Shown: positions 11,201-56,721 of the stretch, piece by piece | Position numbering within the stretch: position 1 is the stretch's first letter | Layout of the letters: every line of letters begins with the position of its first letter | Assembly: GCA_902610675.1 (NCBI GenBank) | Contig: CACLWP010000006.1 | Span: 1-61,781 of the forward strand | Direction of reading: 5' to 3' | Origin: an uncultured Pelagibacteraceae bacterium | GTDB taxonomy: Bacteria > Pseudomonadota > Alphaproteobacteria > Pelagibacterales > Pelagibacteraceae | Length of the DNA: 61,781 nt | Translations under genes and position numbers: made by a program | The notes under the pieces: generated by a model | Database searches by the model: none | The model's input: only the letters and a program-made list of their open reading frames with translations | What the model was told of the DNA's origin: nothing

Positions 11201-12422
11201 TAATGGGGTTCAAGTAGCGATATATAAAGTTGCTTATGGTTCAAGATTATTTTTTAAGAATGATGATAAAGTAAAAGCAAATACAAAAATTTGTGAGTGG
11301 GATCCGTATACAACACCTGTTATTGCTGAAAAAAGTGGCGTAGCTAGCTATGTTGATTTAATAGACGGCTTATCAATTCAAGAAACAACAGATGATGCAA
11401 CAGGTATTTCATCTAAATCAGTTATAGATTGGAGATCACAATCTAAAAGTTCTGACCTGAAACCAAGAATTACATTAAGAGATGAAAAAGGAAATGTAAT
11501 TAAAAAAGCGGATGATAATGAAGCTAGGTATTATTTAGTACCTGACTCGATTTTATCTGTAAAAGATGGACAAAAAGTTTCAGCAGGAGATGTTATAGCA
11601 AGACTTCCTAAAGAAACGACAAAAACAAAAGATATAACTGGAGGATTACCAAGAGTTGCCGAATTATTTGAAGCAAGAAAAGCTAAAGATAGTGCAATCA
11701 TAGCTGAGAATGATGGGCAAGTTATTTTTGGTAAAGAAGTAAGAGGTAAACAGAAAGTTTCAATTACTCCAGAAGATGGATCAGAACCTTCAAATTATTT
11801 AATACCTAAAGGAAAGCATATTAATTTCAACCAAGGTGAAAAAATTAAGAAAGGTGAATATTTGCTTGATGGACAGCCTTTGCCTCATGATATTTTAAGA
11901 ATAATGGGTATTAAAGATCTAACTGAATATTTTGTTAATCAAGTACAGGAAGTTTATAGATTACAAGGTGTAATTATTAATGATAAACATATAGAGACAA
12001 TTTTAAGACAAATGTTGAAAAAAGTTGAAGTTAAAAACTCAGGTGACTCAACATATCTTCCAGGTGAAATTATTGATAGAATTAAATTTGAAAATAATAA
12101 CGAAAAATTAAAATCAGAAGGAAAAAAACCTGCAATTGGTGAAAGAGTTTTGATGGGTATTACAAAAGCATCATTACAAACTGAATCATTTATATCAGCT
12201 GCTTCTTTCCAAGAAACGACTAGGGTCCTCACAGATGCTGCAATTAAAGGTAAAGTTGATCCATTAAATGGATTAAAAGAAAATGTAATTGTTGGTAGAT
12301 TGGTTCCAGCTGGAACAGGTAATATTAAGAATAAATGGAACAAAAAAGCCTTAGAGGACGATAACAAATTCTTATCTGAACAAGATAAAATTGAATCTTC
12401 AGAAACCCAAGCAAATCAATAA
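8259..12422 (+). CDS. rpoC: DNA-directed RNA polymerase subunit beta'
   Basis: RpoC is the beta' subunit carrying the catalytic magnesium site. It is 1387 aa (E. coli 1407). An N-terminal zinc site is formed by C73, C75, C88 and C91. The catalytic NADFDGD motif is at residues 462-468. A second zinc cluster lies in the CENPGF / [12 protein letters not shown] region. The trigger loop has MRTFHVGG. It starts 2 bases after rpoB and is followed by the largest gap in the superoperon, so some transcripts may end or restart there. Confidence 0.99.
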
Positions 12423-12451
12423 AAAAAATCACCTCAATCAAAGGTTTTAGT

Positions 12452-12479
12452 TTGACAAAGTGTAATTAATAAGTAATTT
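12452..12479 (+). promoter_or_regulatory. Possible promoter before the S12 leader
   Basis: A perfect TTGACA (12452-12457) is followed after 16 bases by TAATTT (12474-12479), a weak match to the -10 consensus. It sits just upstream of the folded rpsL leader, where an internal promoter for the str/S10 genes would be useful. The -10 match is poor and the leader stem starts almost at once, so the call is tentative. Confidence 0.3.
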
Positions 12480-12550
12480 GGCGTTGTTTTTGGTTGGATG
12501 TAGTACTTATTGGATGTACTAAACGCTGCCATGATTAACCTGCCAGTTAT
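12480..12550 (+). ncRNA. Candidate ribosomal protein S12 (rpsL) leader RNA
   Basis: The 157-base rpoC-rpsL gap is the longest non-coding stretch in the superoperon and is less A+T-rich than other gaps. Stem 1 pairs GGCGTT (12480-12485) with AACGCT (12522-12527), one G-U pair. Stem 2 pairs TAGTAC (12501-12506) with GTACTA (12516-12521). TTGGATGTA occurs twice (12494-12502 and 12510-12518). A further small hairpin has TAAC/GTTA around CTGCCA (12536-12549). A cis-regulatory motif ahead of rpsL has been reported in Candidatus P. ubique and Rickettsiales relatives (the rpsL_ricks type, from memory). A role in S12-responsive control of rpsL-rpsG-fusA is inferred. Confidence 0.6.
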
Positions 12551-12579
12551 TTCATCAAAAATACAATAATTTAAATTTT

Positions 12580-12951
12580 ATGCCTACAATTAACCAGTTG
12601 TTAAGAAAAAAAAGAGTTAAGCAAACTAAAAGGAACAAAGTTCCTGCATTGCAAAAACAACCTTTAAAAAGAGGGGTGTGTGTTAAAGTTTATACTACCA
12701 CTCCAAAAAAACCAAACTCTGCACTCCGAAAAGTCGCTAGAGTTAGATTATCTAATGGTTTCGAAGTAACAGCATATATACCTGGTGAAGGACATAATTT
12801 ACAGGAACACTCTGTAGTTTTAATTAGAGGAGGAAGAGTAAAAGACTTACCAGGAGTAAGATATCATATTCTTAGAGGAAACTTGGATACACAAGGTGTG
12901 GCTAACAGAAAAAAAAGAAGATCTTTATACGGAACTAAAAAAGGTAAGTAA
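12580..12951 (+). CDS. rpsL: 30S ribosomal protein S12
   Basis: S12 is the decoding-centre protein that contacts the A-site codon-anticodon helix. At 123 aa it is near E. coli length (124). The [13 protein letters not shown] and [13 protein letters not shown] segments retain the two lysines whose mutation gives streptomycin resistance elsewhere. It is preceded by the folded leader at 12480-12550 and followed 2 bases later by rpsG. Confidence 0.98.
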
Positions 12952-13430: not shown

Positions 13431-15509
13431 ATGGCTAGAACTCATACATTAGATAAATATAGAAACATAGGTATCATGGCTCATATTGATGCTGGAAAAA
13501 CAACCACTACTGAAAGAATTTTATACTATACAGGTAAAAGCCATAAAATTGGTGAAGTGCATGATGGTGCAGCAACAATGGACTGGATGGAACAAGAACA
13601 AGAAAGAGGCATAACAATTACCTCAGCAGCTACAACTTGTTTTTGGCAAGATCATAGAATAAATATAATTGATACCCCTGGCCATGTTGATTTTACTATT
13701 GAAGTAGAAAGATCTTTAAAAGTTTTAGATGGTGCAGTAGCAGTTTTTGATGGAGTCGCAGGTGTTGAACCACAATCAGAAACAGTATGGAGACAAGCTG
13801 ACAAGTATAAAGTACCAAGAATTTGTTTTGTTAATAAATTGGATAGAACTGGTGCTGATTTTTTTAGATGCGTAGATATGATCAAAGACAGATTAGGTGC
13901 GAAGCCTTTAGTAATACAGGTTCCAATTGGTATTGAAGCGTCATTAACAGGTGTTGTTGATCTTGTTAAAATGAAAGCTCAAGTATGGAAAAATGAGGCC
14001 TTGGGTGCTGAGTGGGAATATAAAGATATACCAGATGATTTAAAGGAAATATCGCAAAAATACAGAACAGAATTAGTTGAGGCAGCTGTTGAACAAGATG
14101 AAAAATTAATGGAGTCATACCTAAATGGTGATGAGATAAAAGAAGATGATCTTGTTAAATGCATAAGAAAAGGAACGTTAAATTTTGATTTTGTTCCTGT
14201 AATGACTGGCTCAGCTTTTAAAAACAAGGGTGTTCAACCACTTTTAGATGCAGTGGTCAATTATCTACCAAGTCCTGTTGATATAGGCTCAATTAAAGGA
14301 ACTAAATTGGGTAGTGAGGATGAGTTAGAGATGAAATTTGAGGATAGTGCACCATTTTCGGCTTTAGCTTTCAAAGTAGCTAATGATCCCTTTGTAGGAT
14401 CCTTAACCTTTATAAGAATTTATTCTGGGACTATAAAAACTGGAACAGCAGTTTTTAATTCATCCAAAGAAAAAGAGGAAAGAGTTGGTAGAATGCTTTT
14501 AATGCACGCAAACTCTAGAGAAGATATCAAAGAAGCTAACGCTGGCGATATTGTAGCCTTGGCAGGTCTAAAAAACACGATTACTGGTCATACTTTATGT
14601 GATGAAGAAAATAGCGTTCTTTTAGAACCTATGGAGTTTCCAGATCCTGTAATTGAAATTGCAGTAGAACCTAAAACTAAAGCAGACCAAGAAAAGATGG
14701 GTGAGGCTTTAGGAAGATTAGCAAAAGAGGATCCATCATTTAGAGTAACCTCAGATGAAGAATCTGGCCAAACAATTATTAAAGGCATGGGAGAGTTACA
14801 TTTAGATATTATCGTTGATAGAATGAAAAGAGAGTTCAAAGTTGAAGCCAATGTTGGTGCTCCTCAAGTTGCATACAGAGAGACAGTAGAAAATTCCTCA
14901 GAAGTTGAATATACACATAAAAAACAAAGTGGTGGTGCAGGTCAATTTGCTAAAGTTAAATTACTTGTAGAGCCTCAAGATGCTGGTAAAGGTCGCGAGG
15001 TTGAAAGCAAAATTAAAGGTGGATCTATACCTAAAGAGTTTATTCCTGGTGTTGAAAAAGGAATAGAGACAGTGTCTGATGGTGGAATTTTAGCTGGCTT
15101 TCCAATGATTGATTATAAAGTAACAATCCTTGATGGATTACATCATGATGTTGACTCTAGTGTTTTAGCTTTTGAATTAGCAAGTAGAGCATGTTTTAAA
15201 GAAGCTTGCACAAAGGGTGGTTTAAAACTTTTAGAACCAGTTATGAGAGTTGAAGTTGTAACCCCAGAGGATTATATGGGTGATGTTATTGGTGACTTAA
15301 ACAGTCGAAGAGGACAAATAAGCACTCAGGAGCAAAGAGGTAACGCAACTGTAATTACTGCAATGGTCCCTTTAGCTAATATGTTTGGATACATTAATAG
15401 CCTAAGATCTATGTCACAAGGAAGAGCACAATACTCAATGTTTTTTGATCATTATTCAAAAGTTCCTCAAAATGTTCAAGACGAAGTAACCAAAAAGATT
15501 GCAGGTTAA
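13431..15509 (+). CDS. fusA: Elongation factor G
   Basis: EF-G is the GTPase that drives ribosomal translocation. It has 692 aa (E. coli 704). The P loop is AHIDAGKTT at residues 17-25, followed by DTPGHVDF and NKLDR. Domains II-V are complete, with YRETV and the domain IV loop region HHDVDSS. It is followed directly by rpsJ rather than by a second tuf, fusing the str and S10 gene runs. Confidence 0.99.
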
Positions 15510-15510
15510 A

Positions 15511-15819
15511 ATGGAGAAACAGAATATTAGAATAAAATTAAAAGCCTATGACAACAAAGTTTTGGATGCATCAACTGAAGAAATAGTTAACACTGTAAAA
15601 AGAACCGGTGCAACCATTAAGGGTCCAATTCCTCTTCCTACTAAGATAGAAAGATACACAGTTTTAAGATCACCGCATATAGATAAGAAAAGCAGAGAGC
15701 AATTTGAGTCTAGAACACATAAAAGATTAATAGATATTATAGAACCAACACCTCAAACTGTTGAGGCTTTAATGAAATTAGATTTAGCTTCAGGTGTAGA
15801 TGTGGAGATAAAAATTTAA
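15511..15819 (+). CDS. rpsJ: 30S ribosomal protein S10
   Basis: S10 is a head protein of the 30S subunit that also works as NusE in antitermination. I chose the ATG at 15511, one base after the fusA stop. This gives 102 aa beginning [14 protein letters not shown], as in most S10 proteins (E. coli 103). An in-frame ATG at 15499 would add 4 residues and overlap fusA by 11 bases. It opens the S10 gene run. Confidence 0.97.
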
Positions 15820-54409: not shown

Positions 54410-54501
54410 GGAAGAGTGGGTGAGAGGCTGAAACCAGTCGTTTGCTAAATGACCGTACGAGGAAACTTGTACCGAGGGTTCGAATCCCTCCTCTTCCGCC
54501 A
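54410..54501 (+). tRNA. tRNA-Ser(GCU)
   Basis: This is a class II tRNA of 92 bases. The acceptor stem GGAAGAG pairs with CTCTTCC, followed by discriminator G and an encoded CCA. The anticodon stem GTCGT/ATGAC (one G-U) encloses TTGCTAA with anticodon GCT at 54444-54446. A long variable arm lies between 54454 and 54474, and the T arm has GGTTCGAATCC. It reads AGC/AGU serine codons. It stands alone between soxB (-) and the lytic transglycosylase (-). Confidence 0.96.
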
Positions 54502-54504
54502 CTA

Positions 54505-56721
54505 TTAATACAAAGGATCATCTTTAAAGAAGTTTATCATAGTAACTGGCTTTTGAGCTAAGATATATCGATATACATTATAGTTCTCTAATACCCTTTG
54601 GACATAATTTCTTGTTTCTTTAAATTTGATTAATTCAATCCAATTTACATAATCAATTTGGTTCTTTTGTGGATTTTTATTTATTTTTTTCCAATATTTC
54701 ACTCTTTTAGGTCCAGCATTATAAGCAGCTATTGCAAACGGATAAGCACCATCATAATTCAGAATTAAACCAGCTATATAATGTGAGCCTAAATTTATAT
54801 TATATTCAGCATCTCTTGTTAATCTAGATTTTGAATAAGGAAGCTTTGCTTGTTTTGCGACTAATTTTGCAGTGTAAGGCATAAGTTGCATCAAACCTTT
54901 TGCTCCAGCATGACTGTTAGCACTTAAATCAAATTCGCTTTCCTGTCTTATTATAGATAGTATAAATGAAGTATCAGGAATTTTTCTTCCATTTATATAA
55001 TTTGGTGTACTTATAATAGGATAATTATATTTGTTATGAAATCTTTTTTCATAAGACGCAATTTTGGCTATTTGAATAGCAAAATCAAATCTATCGATAC
55101 TCGTAGCCAATTCAGCCGCTAAAACTTCACTGCCATTAATTATATCATCATTAGCCAAATGTCTTAAAATATGTTTTGTGTATTTATCTTCATTAAGTTC
55201 ATCGAGAAGATAAATTGTTTTAACTAATTCTTTTTTAGAAAAGTAATCTTTATATTCTTTTGAAACCTCGACATCTTTAGTAAGCTCAAAAGGTTTATTA
55301 GGATTTAACTCCATGTAAGCTAATTGACCATAATATGTTGTTAAAAAATTAGCTGCTTTACCGAACCATTCATTAGCTAATTCATTTTTACCAAGTTTTT
55401 GATAACTTTTAGCCAGCCAATAAGCTCCTCTTGACGTACTTATAGGGTAACCAACATTACTATAAAAATTTTCAAAATGATCTTTTGCTAATAAAGGATC
55501 ATCTAAAAAACTTAATGCTATCCAACCACTCATCCATTCCGCAGCTGCATACTCAGGTCCATCATTCAAAGCATGATTACTAGCAATTTTATAAGCTAGT
55601 TCATATTTCTTTTTATAAATTAATGATCTTGAAATTATTTCTCGTTCAAACCACCATTTATCTGGTCTAACTAAATAATCTTTGGTATTTTTTATTTTAA
55701 CTAAAATTTCGACAGAACTATCAACTCTTCCTCTTTTTCTTCTCCATTTTAACCTATCGTAATTTAAACCTGCGTCATTTTTAAATTTAGCTGGAACTTT
55801 TGAAATAGCATTATCAACGCCATATGATTTACTCATTAATAGTTGTCTTGCTGTATAAAGTAATTCGTAATCTTTAGGTAAATATCTTAATAATCTTTTT
55901 AAATCCCAATATTTATTATTCCATGCCAAGTAATCTGCCCTTTTAATATAATCATCAGCATTGAGATATTTCTTAAATTTTTTTCTATAAAATCTCAATT
56001 CGGATTTATTTAGTTCTGCAGTAATCCATCCTTCTTTAATATAGGAAACACCTTTTTGTAAATTACCATTGAGAATTATACTCTCCCCAAGTATCATTTT
56101 TCCAAAACCACTCAATGGTTCGTCAACATCAAACCAATCTATAATTTTTTTTGGTGAAATAGTGTCTGTAGAAAGCTTATGCTCTGCTAAATATTTTATT
56201 CTTCCTAATCTTGGATAATCTTTATTTTTATCTATAAACGTTTTATAATCGTAATATGAAGCCTTATTTCCTTTAGTTAGTAGGTGTCTCCATTGTATGA
56301 AATTATAGATAGATTTATCCTTGGCTTTTTTTGCAGTTTTCAGCGCATTAGGCCATTTTGCTTGTTTCATTTCTAAAATAGCCTTTTTTGCAATTTCAAA
56401 ATCCTTTTTATTATAATGTTTAGATTTTTTTGCTGTACCAGTTTTTTTAGTTCCAGCAATTAAAGGTTTTTTCTTAGGTAGAATAATACCCAAGTCTTTC
56501 TCGGCTTTTAACTTTATTTCTTTTTTAGGTTCTTCTTTATTCTCTATTACTTTTTTGGTTACTGGTTTTGGTAGAGGTTTAATTACATCTATTAATAATT
56601 TTTGATCTTTTTCCTCTTGAGTCTGTATTGGTTTTTTAAGAGGTATTATCTCTGCAGACAAAAAAATAGTAATATTAGAGAATAAAAATAGACTGATAAA
56701 AAATATAAATTTTTTTAGCAT
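54505..56721 (-). CDS. Lytic murein transglycosylase (Slt-type)
   Basis: This periplasmic enzyme cleaves peptidoglycan glycan strands to leave 1,6-anhydro ends. The 738-aa protein has a signal peptide (residues 1-24), a Lys/Pro-rich linker (about 25-100), a long superhelical array of helical repeats and a C-terminal SLT domain. The catalytic Glu lies in IIRQESEFDLSA near residue 593, followed by HAGAKGLMQLMP and AYNAGPKRV. It resembles Slt70 but is not closely assigned within the family. The stop lies 3 bases from the tRNA-Ser 3' end; dapA diverges after 43 bases. Confidence 0.93.
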   Translation of the reverse strand: MLKKFIFFISLFLFSNITIFLSAEIIPLKKPIQTQEEKDQKLLIDVIKPLPKPVTKKVIENKEEPKKEIKLKAEKDLGIILPKKKPLIAGTKKTGTAKKSKHYNKKDFEIAKKAILEMKQAKWPNALKTAKKAKDKSIYNFIQWRHLLTKGNKASYYDYKTFIDKNKDYPRLGRIKYLAEHKLSTDTISPKKIIDWFDVDEPLSGFGKMILGESIILNGNLQKGVSYIKEGWITAELNKSELRFYRKKFKKYLNADDYIKRADYLAWNNKYWDLKRLLRYLPKDYELLYTARQLLMSKSYGVDNAISKVPAKFKNDAGLNYDRLKWRRKRGRVDSSVEILVKIKNTKDYLVRPDKWWFEREIISRSLIYKKKYELAYKIASNHALNDGPEYAAAEWMSGWIALSFLDDPLLAKDHFENFYSNVGYPISTSRGAYWLAKSYQKLGKNELANEWFGKAANFLTTYYGQLAYMELNPNKPFELTKDVEVSKEYKDYFSKKELVKTIYLLDELNEDKYTKHILRHLANDDIINGSEVLAAELATSIDRFDFAIQIAKIASYEKRFHNKYNYPIISTPNYINGRKIPDTSFILSIIRQESEFDLSANSHAGAKGLMQLMPYTAKLVAKQAKLPYSKSRLTRDAEYNINLGSHYIAGLILNYDGAYPFAIAAYNAGPKRVKYWKKINKNPQKNQIDYVNWIELIKFKETRNYVQRVLENYNVYRYILAQKPVTMINFFKDDPLY

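Follow-up and report, generated by a model that had tools for sequence, protein, structure and literature searches.

The structured leader ahead of rpsL in an uncultured Pelagibacteraceae bacterium is a member of an already catalogued RNA family, the SAR11 rpsL motif (RF01823), and this motif appears, from sequence comparison, to be one branch of a wider alphaproteobacterial hairpin. The new observation concerns the core of the leader, GUAG...CUAAACGC, which many alphaproteobacteria carry ahead of rpsL as part of a bulged hairpin. Coordinates are those of a stretch of 61,781 nucleotides (contig CACLWP010000006.1, positions 1 to 61,781), hereafter called the window.

Results

The rpsL leader of the window belongs to RF01823

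In the window, rpoC ends at 12422 and rpsL, an open reading frame with S12 relatives at 12580-12951 (+ strand), stands first in a series of ribosomal-protein genes, rpsJ (ORF 15499-15819) among them; the latter retrieves S10 genes in other genomes. The gap between rpoC and rpsL measures 157 bases (12423-12579), just as a preliminary description of this DNA had stated, and the locally lower A+T content mentioned there is also real, with 40.8% GC at 12480-12550 as against 30.2% in the window and 28.7% in the whole gap. The leader matches RF01823 over model positions 1-89 of 89 (Rfam bounds 12478-12565, +; E 8.8e-13); its full-model score of 78.2 bits lies above the curated gathering threshold of 37 bits, it occupies the rpoC-rpsL position in a SAR11-type genome, and it is the sole match to this family in the window's own assembly. 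The window also holds two tRNA genes (1285-1357 and 54410-54498, both + and both above Rfam gathering).

The preliminary description had stated that a conserved leader of the S12 gene was reported in Pelagibacter-type genomes, and this was right (Meyer et al. 2009, PMC2704228; RF01823). The accessible text of that paper locates the motif in the rpoC-rpsL gap, with 22 ribosomal-protein genes following in series, and describes a bulged P1, a three-stem junction, a covarying P2 and a conserved J2-3; its authors knew the motif from no source other than Cand. P. ubique and marine metagenomes, could make no prediction of its binding partner and saw no resemblance to S7, S8 or L4 motifs. The RF01823 match of one genome (G427, 1074209-1074301) falls inside a gap (1074189-1074359) listed in the same text. 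The name of the family is spelled 'rspL' in the Rfam entry.

The covariance model put forward earlier as the appropriate check was rpsL_ricks (RF01774), a family that lies upstream of rpsL in Rickettsia. It had to be rejected as the right model: RF01774 gave no gathering-level match in the window, which sets the leader apart from that family, and RF01823 matches instead. The same model was silent in all 288 class genomes searched and in every control genome, and its search is thus uninformative on the occurrence of the family. Rickettsia rpsL-leaders are shown among attenuators in the accessible part of PMC2965389.

RF01823 was detected in 21 of 61 relatives, in 281 of 399 genomes of the genus and in 145 of 248 genomes of the order, the own genome being counted each time; every match in the order lies in the window's genus, one of nine genera. 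One genome of the genus (G330) has two matches; its contamination value is 2 and it may be a mixed bin. When 21 genus genomes without a match were followed with the S12 protein, rpsL proved complete in 6 and a contig-end piece in 2, with none in the other 13. A recognisable leader is present in all six genomes with a complete rpsL (L153-L158), and an Rfam scan did not detect RF01823 in these leaders at E<=1. Since 15 of the followed genomes are without a complete rpsL and 6 have a diverged leader, absence of RF01823 from these 21 means missing sequence or divergence.

A predicted promoter and the probable 5' end of the leader

For comparison within the genus we used 158 leaders, namely the window, L003 (Pelagibacteraceae) and 156 from the same genus, which amount to 153 distinct RNAs. 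The arrangement TTGAC[AT]-16 bp-TA[TAGC]TTT lies upstream in 158 of 158, the window included, where it takes the form of a predicted -35 hexamer TTGACA (12452-12457, +), a spacer of exactly 16 bp and a predicted -10 hexamer TAATTT (12474-12479, +). Over the 158 leaders, column identity is 1.00 in the -35 box, 0.95 in the -10 box and 0.68 in the spacer, of which there are 102 distinct versions. The sister family f2 carries TTGAC[CG]-16-TAT[TA][AT]T in 32/32 leaders. A simple promoter scan did not list the window site (12452-12479), and TAATTT agrees with TATAAT at only 3/6 positions. Transcription is predicted to start at G12486 (+), an offset at which 157/158 leaders have a purine, preceded by T in 142/158. 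Its own promoter would then start the leader near 12486, with the structured part beginning from about nucleotide 1-2, and the predicted 5' UTR, judged by conservation, would span 12486-12579 (94 nt, +).

It follows from this placement of the promoter that the RF01823 match begins inside the -10 box, the last two bases of which are match positions 1-2, and the opening positions of the Rfam model would accordingly be promoter DNA (-10 and discriminator). On account of its position and promoter, RF01823 is better called a cis leader than the small RNA gene of the Rfam type. The placement also bears on the outer of the two stems proposed initially, GGCGTT/AACGCT. The two strings (12480-12485 and 12522-12527) are indeed complementary as written, but GGCGTT is probably the promoter discriminator (12480-12485, +) and probably lies outside the RNA, because it is situated between the conserved -10 box and the predicted start; the discriminator differs between clades while AACGC is mostly kept. 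Four to six discriminator-AACGCT pairs are available in 127/158 leaders and one to three in 31/158, and all six, the count for the window's own letters, in 1/158. With one arm in the promoter discriminator, this stem was rejected.

Covariation within the genus and two possible folds

The inner stem proposed initially, TAGTAC/GTACTA, is borne out as P2, in which UAGUAC (12501-12506) pairs with GUACUA (12516-12521; hairpin 12501-12521, +). Among the 153 distinct leaders, 97.6% of its cells are paired and covariation is strong, with 112 both-side-change cells vs 31.6 ± 10.2 after shuffling. The Rfam alignment adds P1, with a 5' strand at 12488-12500 (+; 12488-12493 and 12496-12500, with a UU bulge at 12494-12495) and a 3' strand at 12548-12560 (+; 12548-12553 and 12555-12560) that ends 19 nt before the rpsL ATG, and P3, which pairs GCUG (12525-12528) with CAGU (12544-12547) across a 15-nt loop (12525-12547, +). 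P3 has 95.1% of its cells paired and 12 both-side-change cells vs 1.5 shuffled; in P1b, the upper part of P1, 95.1% of cells are likewise paired, with 0 both-side changes (153 distinct leaders for both).

An alternative outer stem, P1', can be formed by UGGUUG (12491-12496) and CUGCCA (12526-12531) with one U-U mismatch (12491-12531, +), in the position of the outer stem of the class hairpin described below. It can be combined with an alternative hairpin, P3', of GAUUAAC (12533-12539) and GUUAUUU (12546-12552), which has one mismatch in the window (12533-12552, +) and excludes Rfam P3 and P1b. P3' shows 19 both-side-change cells vs 4.1 ± 1.9 shuffled (153 distinct leaders). P1' is near-invariant in the genus, with the U-U mismatch in 147/153, and shows no covariation there. 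All these genus counts are indications, because the shuffles ignore relatedness.

In computed ensembles, P1a and P1b are favoured in most leaders (mean 0.83/0.76; window 0.82/0.72), and the ensemble of the window prefers the Rfam fold, with P1' at 0.15 and P3' at 0.18. In the L153 clade (6 leaders), P1' is complete, UGGUUG/CGACCA enclosing the core, and the ensemble favours P1' (0.74) and P3' (0.75). The ensemble of the L101 clade (7 leaders) shows P1 but neither P2 (0.01) nor P3 (0.00), against both readings of the fold. As modelled here, it is possible that the Pelagibacter leader has two mutually exclusive folds, the Rfam three-way arrangement and P1' with P3'. The folding energy of the window leader is unremarkable (z -0.16; 90/200 shuffles at least as stable), and support for structure in the leader is for that reason comparative rather than thermodynamic.

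The preliminary description had further drawn attention to a repeated 9-mer, with one copy inside the loop of the inner stem, as a detail that could permit alternative pairing or duplicate protein binding. TTGGATGTA does occur twice, at 12494 and 12510, but the exact repeat is found only in the window (1/158 leaders), and the second copy extends into the 3' strand of P2 instead of being confined to the loop. The repeat is thus private to this genome, and as a duplicate binding site it was rejected.

A wider alphaproteobacterial hairpin upstream of rpsL

Leaders of the sister family f2 read, shortly after the promoter, AGUAG-G-CG-G-UAGA-loop-UCUA-AA-CG-CUACU, and the core GUAG...CUAAACGC is also present in rpsL upstream regions of other alphaproteobacteria. 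The string CTARACGC occurs <=600 nt upstream of rpsL in 16/104 loci, one of them the SAR11 locus L003; the background rate is 0.0039 per 600 nt (4 matches in 619,913 bases). A structural scorer, written after the motif was seen, gave values >=11 in 98/221 rpsL upstream regions vs 0/221 reverse complements, 4/225 loci in this run being without a recognised rpsL start. The 98 comprise 53 loci of the class sample (L278-L383), 31 f2 leaders that are mostly near-identical, 8 loci from the S12 search and the 6 of the L153 clade. The hairpin is thus found at rpsL in 53/105 of the class sample, about half being without it, and by the scorer f2 has the canonical form in 31/32 leaders, L163 falling below 11. 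Upstream regions of 80 further class genomes were added to those of 30 loci, out of 265 class genomes with an S12 match. Outgroups came from an S12 protein search of genome contigs, the best 80 matches being kept; owing to the strong conservation of S12, distantly related bacteria were numerous among these matches. Among the loci L030-L081, 37 are non-Alphaproteobacteria, and none of these is among the 98. Two further rpsL leaders were noticed by eye: that of L011 (SAR116), which is not among the score-11 matches, has a hairpin-like UUAGACGCUAGCUC after a TTGACC promoter, and L277 (G423; same family, other genus) has an intermediate-looking, near-canonical GGUAG...UAAAGC-loop-GCUUUA-AAC...CUACC upstream of rpsL.

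Alignment A1 has 48 rows; three of the 51 extracted sequences (L296, L310 and L362) were omitted, and long loops, duplicates, the L153 clade, L044, L327, L331 and all f2 leaders except five had been excluded beforehand. Eight of its columns are invariant in the 48 leaders (G9, the bulged G10, G13, U14, A33, A35, C36 and C38), and the columns that match the window core are invariant except for R34 and R37. Pairing is seen in 89.6% of the cells of the drawn structure, which reaches a covariation score of 0.602; 500 shuffles give 0.270 ± 0.017, and sliding the structure gives no more than 0.200. By one of five measures A1 is no better than shuffled, pairs with any both-side change numbering 10/13 vs 9.1, a value that 125/500 shuffles reach. 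The Y:R pair is U-G in 20 leaders, C-G in 17, U-A in 11 and never C-A; the scorer rewarded this pair. Since the rows were chosen by a score that rewards pairing, Y:R included, the test on A1 is partly circular, and because of this circularity it was repeated on loci selected by sequence only (GTAG, then CTARACGC; 33/181 loci, 28 distinct). Here three variable outer positions pair in 24, 26 and 25 of 28 leaders vs 13.8, 15.7 and 17.2 when shuffled, exceeding all 500 shuffles; one further position is invariant and four are not significant. The bulged G is present in 26/28 and the Y:R position pairs in 27/28. On these comparisons the wider hairpin is well supported as a real RNA. It consists of an outer stem, a bulged G, one Y:R pair, an internal loop NG/RAC and an inner stem closed by U-A.

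A covariance model built from A1 (R1) found, at E<=0.001, 52/269 class genomes with one place each, and 6/249 phylum genomes, all in the same class; the number of genomes from other classes among the 249 is not part of that result, which therefore does not prove restriction of the hairpin to the class. Of 35 R1 loci read, 34 contain rpsL and the one without it holds rpsJ; 11 of these 34 are absent from A1 by exact core string, some being of the same genus as A1 rows. Thirty of the 52 class matches were read as loci, all with rpsL, and 16 more lie just upstream of rpsL by coordinates; of the remainder, G619 has its match upstream of rpsJ and those of G761, G697, G684, G807 and G823 are unplaced.

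At E<=1, an Rfam scan of 13 loci (8 with a hairpin scoring >=11) returned only a chance-level microRNA family on L278 (E 0.82), and a scan of L153-L163, L002 and L003 returned only RF01823 on L003, the f2 loci L159-L163 being without a match. The wider hairpin thus appears to be missing from Rfam 15 among the hairpin loci scanned. No published description of it was found among the literature matches listed or in the accessible parts of PMC7247131, PMC2864571, PMC1273637 and PMC2965389, and an earlier description may exist.

Probable kinship of the window leader with the class hairpin

The scorer places its best match in the whole window at the leader (13.6), with the next on the + strand at 10.6 and the - strand at most 7.8. 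The second-best place, at about 55034-55052 (+, 10.6), coincides with an opposite-strand gene in the ORF list. CTARACGC occurs once in the window, both strands counted. Scores of 11, 10 and 8 are reached by 57, 136 and all 158 of the genus leaders, and by 0, 0 and 1 of their reverse complements, respectively. The class-type core of the window (12497-12526, +) comprises the bulge G12497, G12500 and U12501 and, on the other side, A12521, A12522, A12523, C12524, G12525 and C12526. The pattern G-U...A-RA-C with a covarying inner stem upstream of rpsL is present in the window (G12500 U12501, A12521-C12524, P2), as is the bulged G, which is G in only 3/158 genus leaders and A in 155/158. The Y:R pair of the class hairpin is absent: A12498 faces G12525, A stands with G in the window and in 151/158 leaders, and a standard pair is found at this position in 6/158 (5 U-G, 1 U-A). 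R1 gave no significant + strand match at the window leader; it scored L154 at 9.4 bits (E 4.6), L163 at 12.2 bits (E 0.91) and L161 at 38.5 bits. By way of the core, the position, the scorer and the intermediates, and not by the covariance model, the window leader is likely homologous to the class hairpin.

Placement before rpsJ and candidate ligands

Three genomes carry the hairpin before rpsJ. In G619 (R1 36.8 bits) it is flanked by rpsJ and by a gene that follows fusA and is EF-Tu-like in its first residues, in G980 upstream of rpsJ behind a gene with a product that looks secreted by eye (36.6 bits), and in G794 307 nt upstream of rpsJ (23.9 bits, E 0.0021; scorer 17.4). The rpsL regions of G619 (L350) and G794 (L323) show no core, G619 having a weak 16.3-bit R1 match (E 0.088) further upstream of rpsL. 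The search for rpsJ covered 40 genomes (38 without a hairpin at rpsL and two with), of which 39 matched, yielding 30 loci, several cut by contig ends, and 29 with an S10 start; among these 29 rpsJ regions, nearly all from genomes without a hairpin at rpsL, only that of G794 has the hairpin. Where the hairpin at rpsL and rpsJ share a contig (16 genomes), rpsJ starts 3.0 to 4.5 kb downstream of the hairpin. In 17 other genomes rpsJ lies within 350 bases of the contig start, as expected if assembly breaks in the repeated tuf gene.

Both placements of the hairpin have in common the genes of the S10 operon and those beyond it. A related hairpin before rpsJ weakens 'S12 leader' as a description of the ligand, and with three genomes showing this placement, the binder is more likely to be encoded in the S10 operon (by precedent, L4) than to be S12 or S7. 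According to the accessible part of PMC10931766, L4 controls the E. coli S10 operon at both transcription and translation; by analogy, the ligand of the hairpin may be such an S10-operon protein, with the three rpsJ cases leaving room for a protein made elsewhere. No mimicry of rRNA was found: the best R1 match on E. coli rrnB has E 1.3, and looser scans gave only scattered partial matches. The matching string in E. coli 23S rRNA, GUGGGAAGGCCCAGAC at about 1034-1049 (L419 3175-3190), resembles the inner part of the hairpin at chance level (E 1.3).

Discussion

We think it fairly probable that the window leader is the 5' leader RNA of a merged str-S10-spc operon, that is, that RF01823, driven by its own promoter and descended in SAR11 from the class hairpin, serves the autogenous control of ribosomal proteins. 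A ribosomal protein encoded in the operon, when in excess over rRNA, would bind the G/RAC internal loop and, once bound, would lower expression of the operon; we infer the binding, the ligand and the controlled step alike. In the Rfam three-way fold, pairing in P1 stops 19 nt short of the AUG and might interfere with initiation; by eye, the window rpsL is not preceded by a recognisable Shine-Dalgarno sequence. The P1'+P3' fold would present the ancestral element, and a putative switch between the two folds would connect these states.

Several other explanations deserve consideration. That the gap is ordinary intergenic DNA with only a promoter, its structure a by-product, is extremely improbable: the folding energy, no better than that of shuffles (z -0.16), is what such DNA would show, but this reading is contradicted by the covariation of P2 and of the class hairpin and by the Rfam score. 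It is rather unlikely, too, that the SAR11 rpsL motif has no kinship with the class hairpin, the two having arisen separately before the same gene and sharing the 8-mer by chance or convergence. A separate origin would explain why the class covariance model misses the genus, why the Y:R pair differs and why the bulged G differs in 155/158 leaders. It sits less well with the rarity of CTARACGC (4 background matches in 619,913 bases, one in the window), with the window leader being the scorer's top place in the window and having the bulged G, with a promoter of identical spacing common to the sister family f2, which has the canonical hairpin, and with the UGGUUG/CGACCA stem that the L153 clade, of the same genus, forms around the core.

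With regard to the ligand, a str-encoded protein could instead feed back at the operon head, the leader being a site for S7 (or S12), as E. coli S7 does between rpsL and rpsG. In favour of this, the hairpin mostly stands immediately before rpsL, and the E. coli str operon is repressed by S7; according to the accessible part of PMC10931766, S7-type control has hardly been studied in other phyla, and near 1337-1347 16S rRNA has GGAATCGCTAG, a short string loosely like UARACGCUA. We nevertheless judge an S7 or S12 site improbable in view of the hairpins before rpsJ in G619, G980 and G794, the lack of the core in the rpsL regions of G619 (L350; only the weak 16.3-bit match) and G794 (L323), the gene before the hairpin in G980, which is not a str gene, a best covariance-model match of only E 1.3 on E. 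coli rrnB, and the absence of a resemblance to the S7 motif in the accessible text of Meyer et al. (PMC2704228). The controlled step might also be transcription rather than translation, with the 5' hairpin acting on a downstream terminator, which is compatible with our main reading as to origin and ligand. Elsewhere in the alphaproteobacteria, 130-210 nt often separate the hairpin from the downstream rpsL, and attenuation is possible there because terminator-like hairpins in this interval exceed shuffles (10/56 class leaders vs 2.5 ± 1.4, at most 6); the f2 hairpin leads directly into a U-tract, and attenuators have been predicted upstream of rpsL in several genera (PMC2965389, accessible part). 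By the same test, though, 46/56 class leaders are without such a terminator and none is found on the + strand at the window leader, and we regard attenuation as a minority possibility. In L161 and other f2 leaders, the hairpin runs straight into the U-rich tract CUACUUUUUAUU, like an intrinsic terminator near the transcript start.

Among known systems, the window leader is closest to RF01823, with which it shares a full-length match above gathering, the rpoC-rpsL place and the P1/P2/P3 drawing (PMC2704228, accessible text). The family as drawn differs in that its first model positions look like -10 and discriminator DNA, in that P1b has 0 both-side changes in 153 leaders whereas the competing P3' covaries, and in that six leaders of the same genus (L153-L158) are without a match at E<=1. 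The S10-operon leader of E. coli, the L4 target, likewise precedes S10-operon genes and exerts autogenous control, a likeness drawn from its description in the accessible part of PMC10931766; the alphaproteobacterial hairpin, in contrast, stands mostly ahead of rpsL. The E. coli S7 site between rpsL and rpsG belongs to the same operon as the window leader, but occupies another place and, in the accessible text of Meyer et al. (PMC2704228), has no resemblance to the SAR11 motif; R1, for its part, found no rRNA-like match on E. coli rrnB. The L2 r-leader candidate of Eckert and Weinberg 2020 (PMC7247131, Table 1) is also alphaproteobacterial and in the S10 operon; by its description it is set apart in being upstream of rplB, and the accessible Table 1 has no candidate upstream of rpsL or rpsJ.

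Reaching further, we would tentatively propose, as a conjecture more apt to fail than to hold, that a leader widespread in Alphaproteobacteria, absent from Rfam 15 in the scans made, stands at the head of the str-S10-spc genes, before rpsL or before rpsJ, and is recognised by a single protein of the S10 operon (probably L4), and that the SAR11 motif is its most derived branch, a two-state RNA in which the alternative fold restores the ancestral site.

The presence of a hairpin with the same core in many alphaproteobacteria, three times before rpsJ, narrows the candidates for the ligand, and other alphaproteobacteria are easier hosts than SAR11 for binding tests. SAR11 bacteria are very abundant marine cells. 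Transcription is likely to start within one or two bases of the structure, and the leader may control most of the ribosomal-protein genes of these cells.
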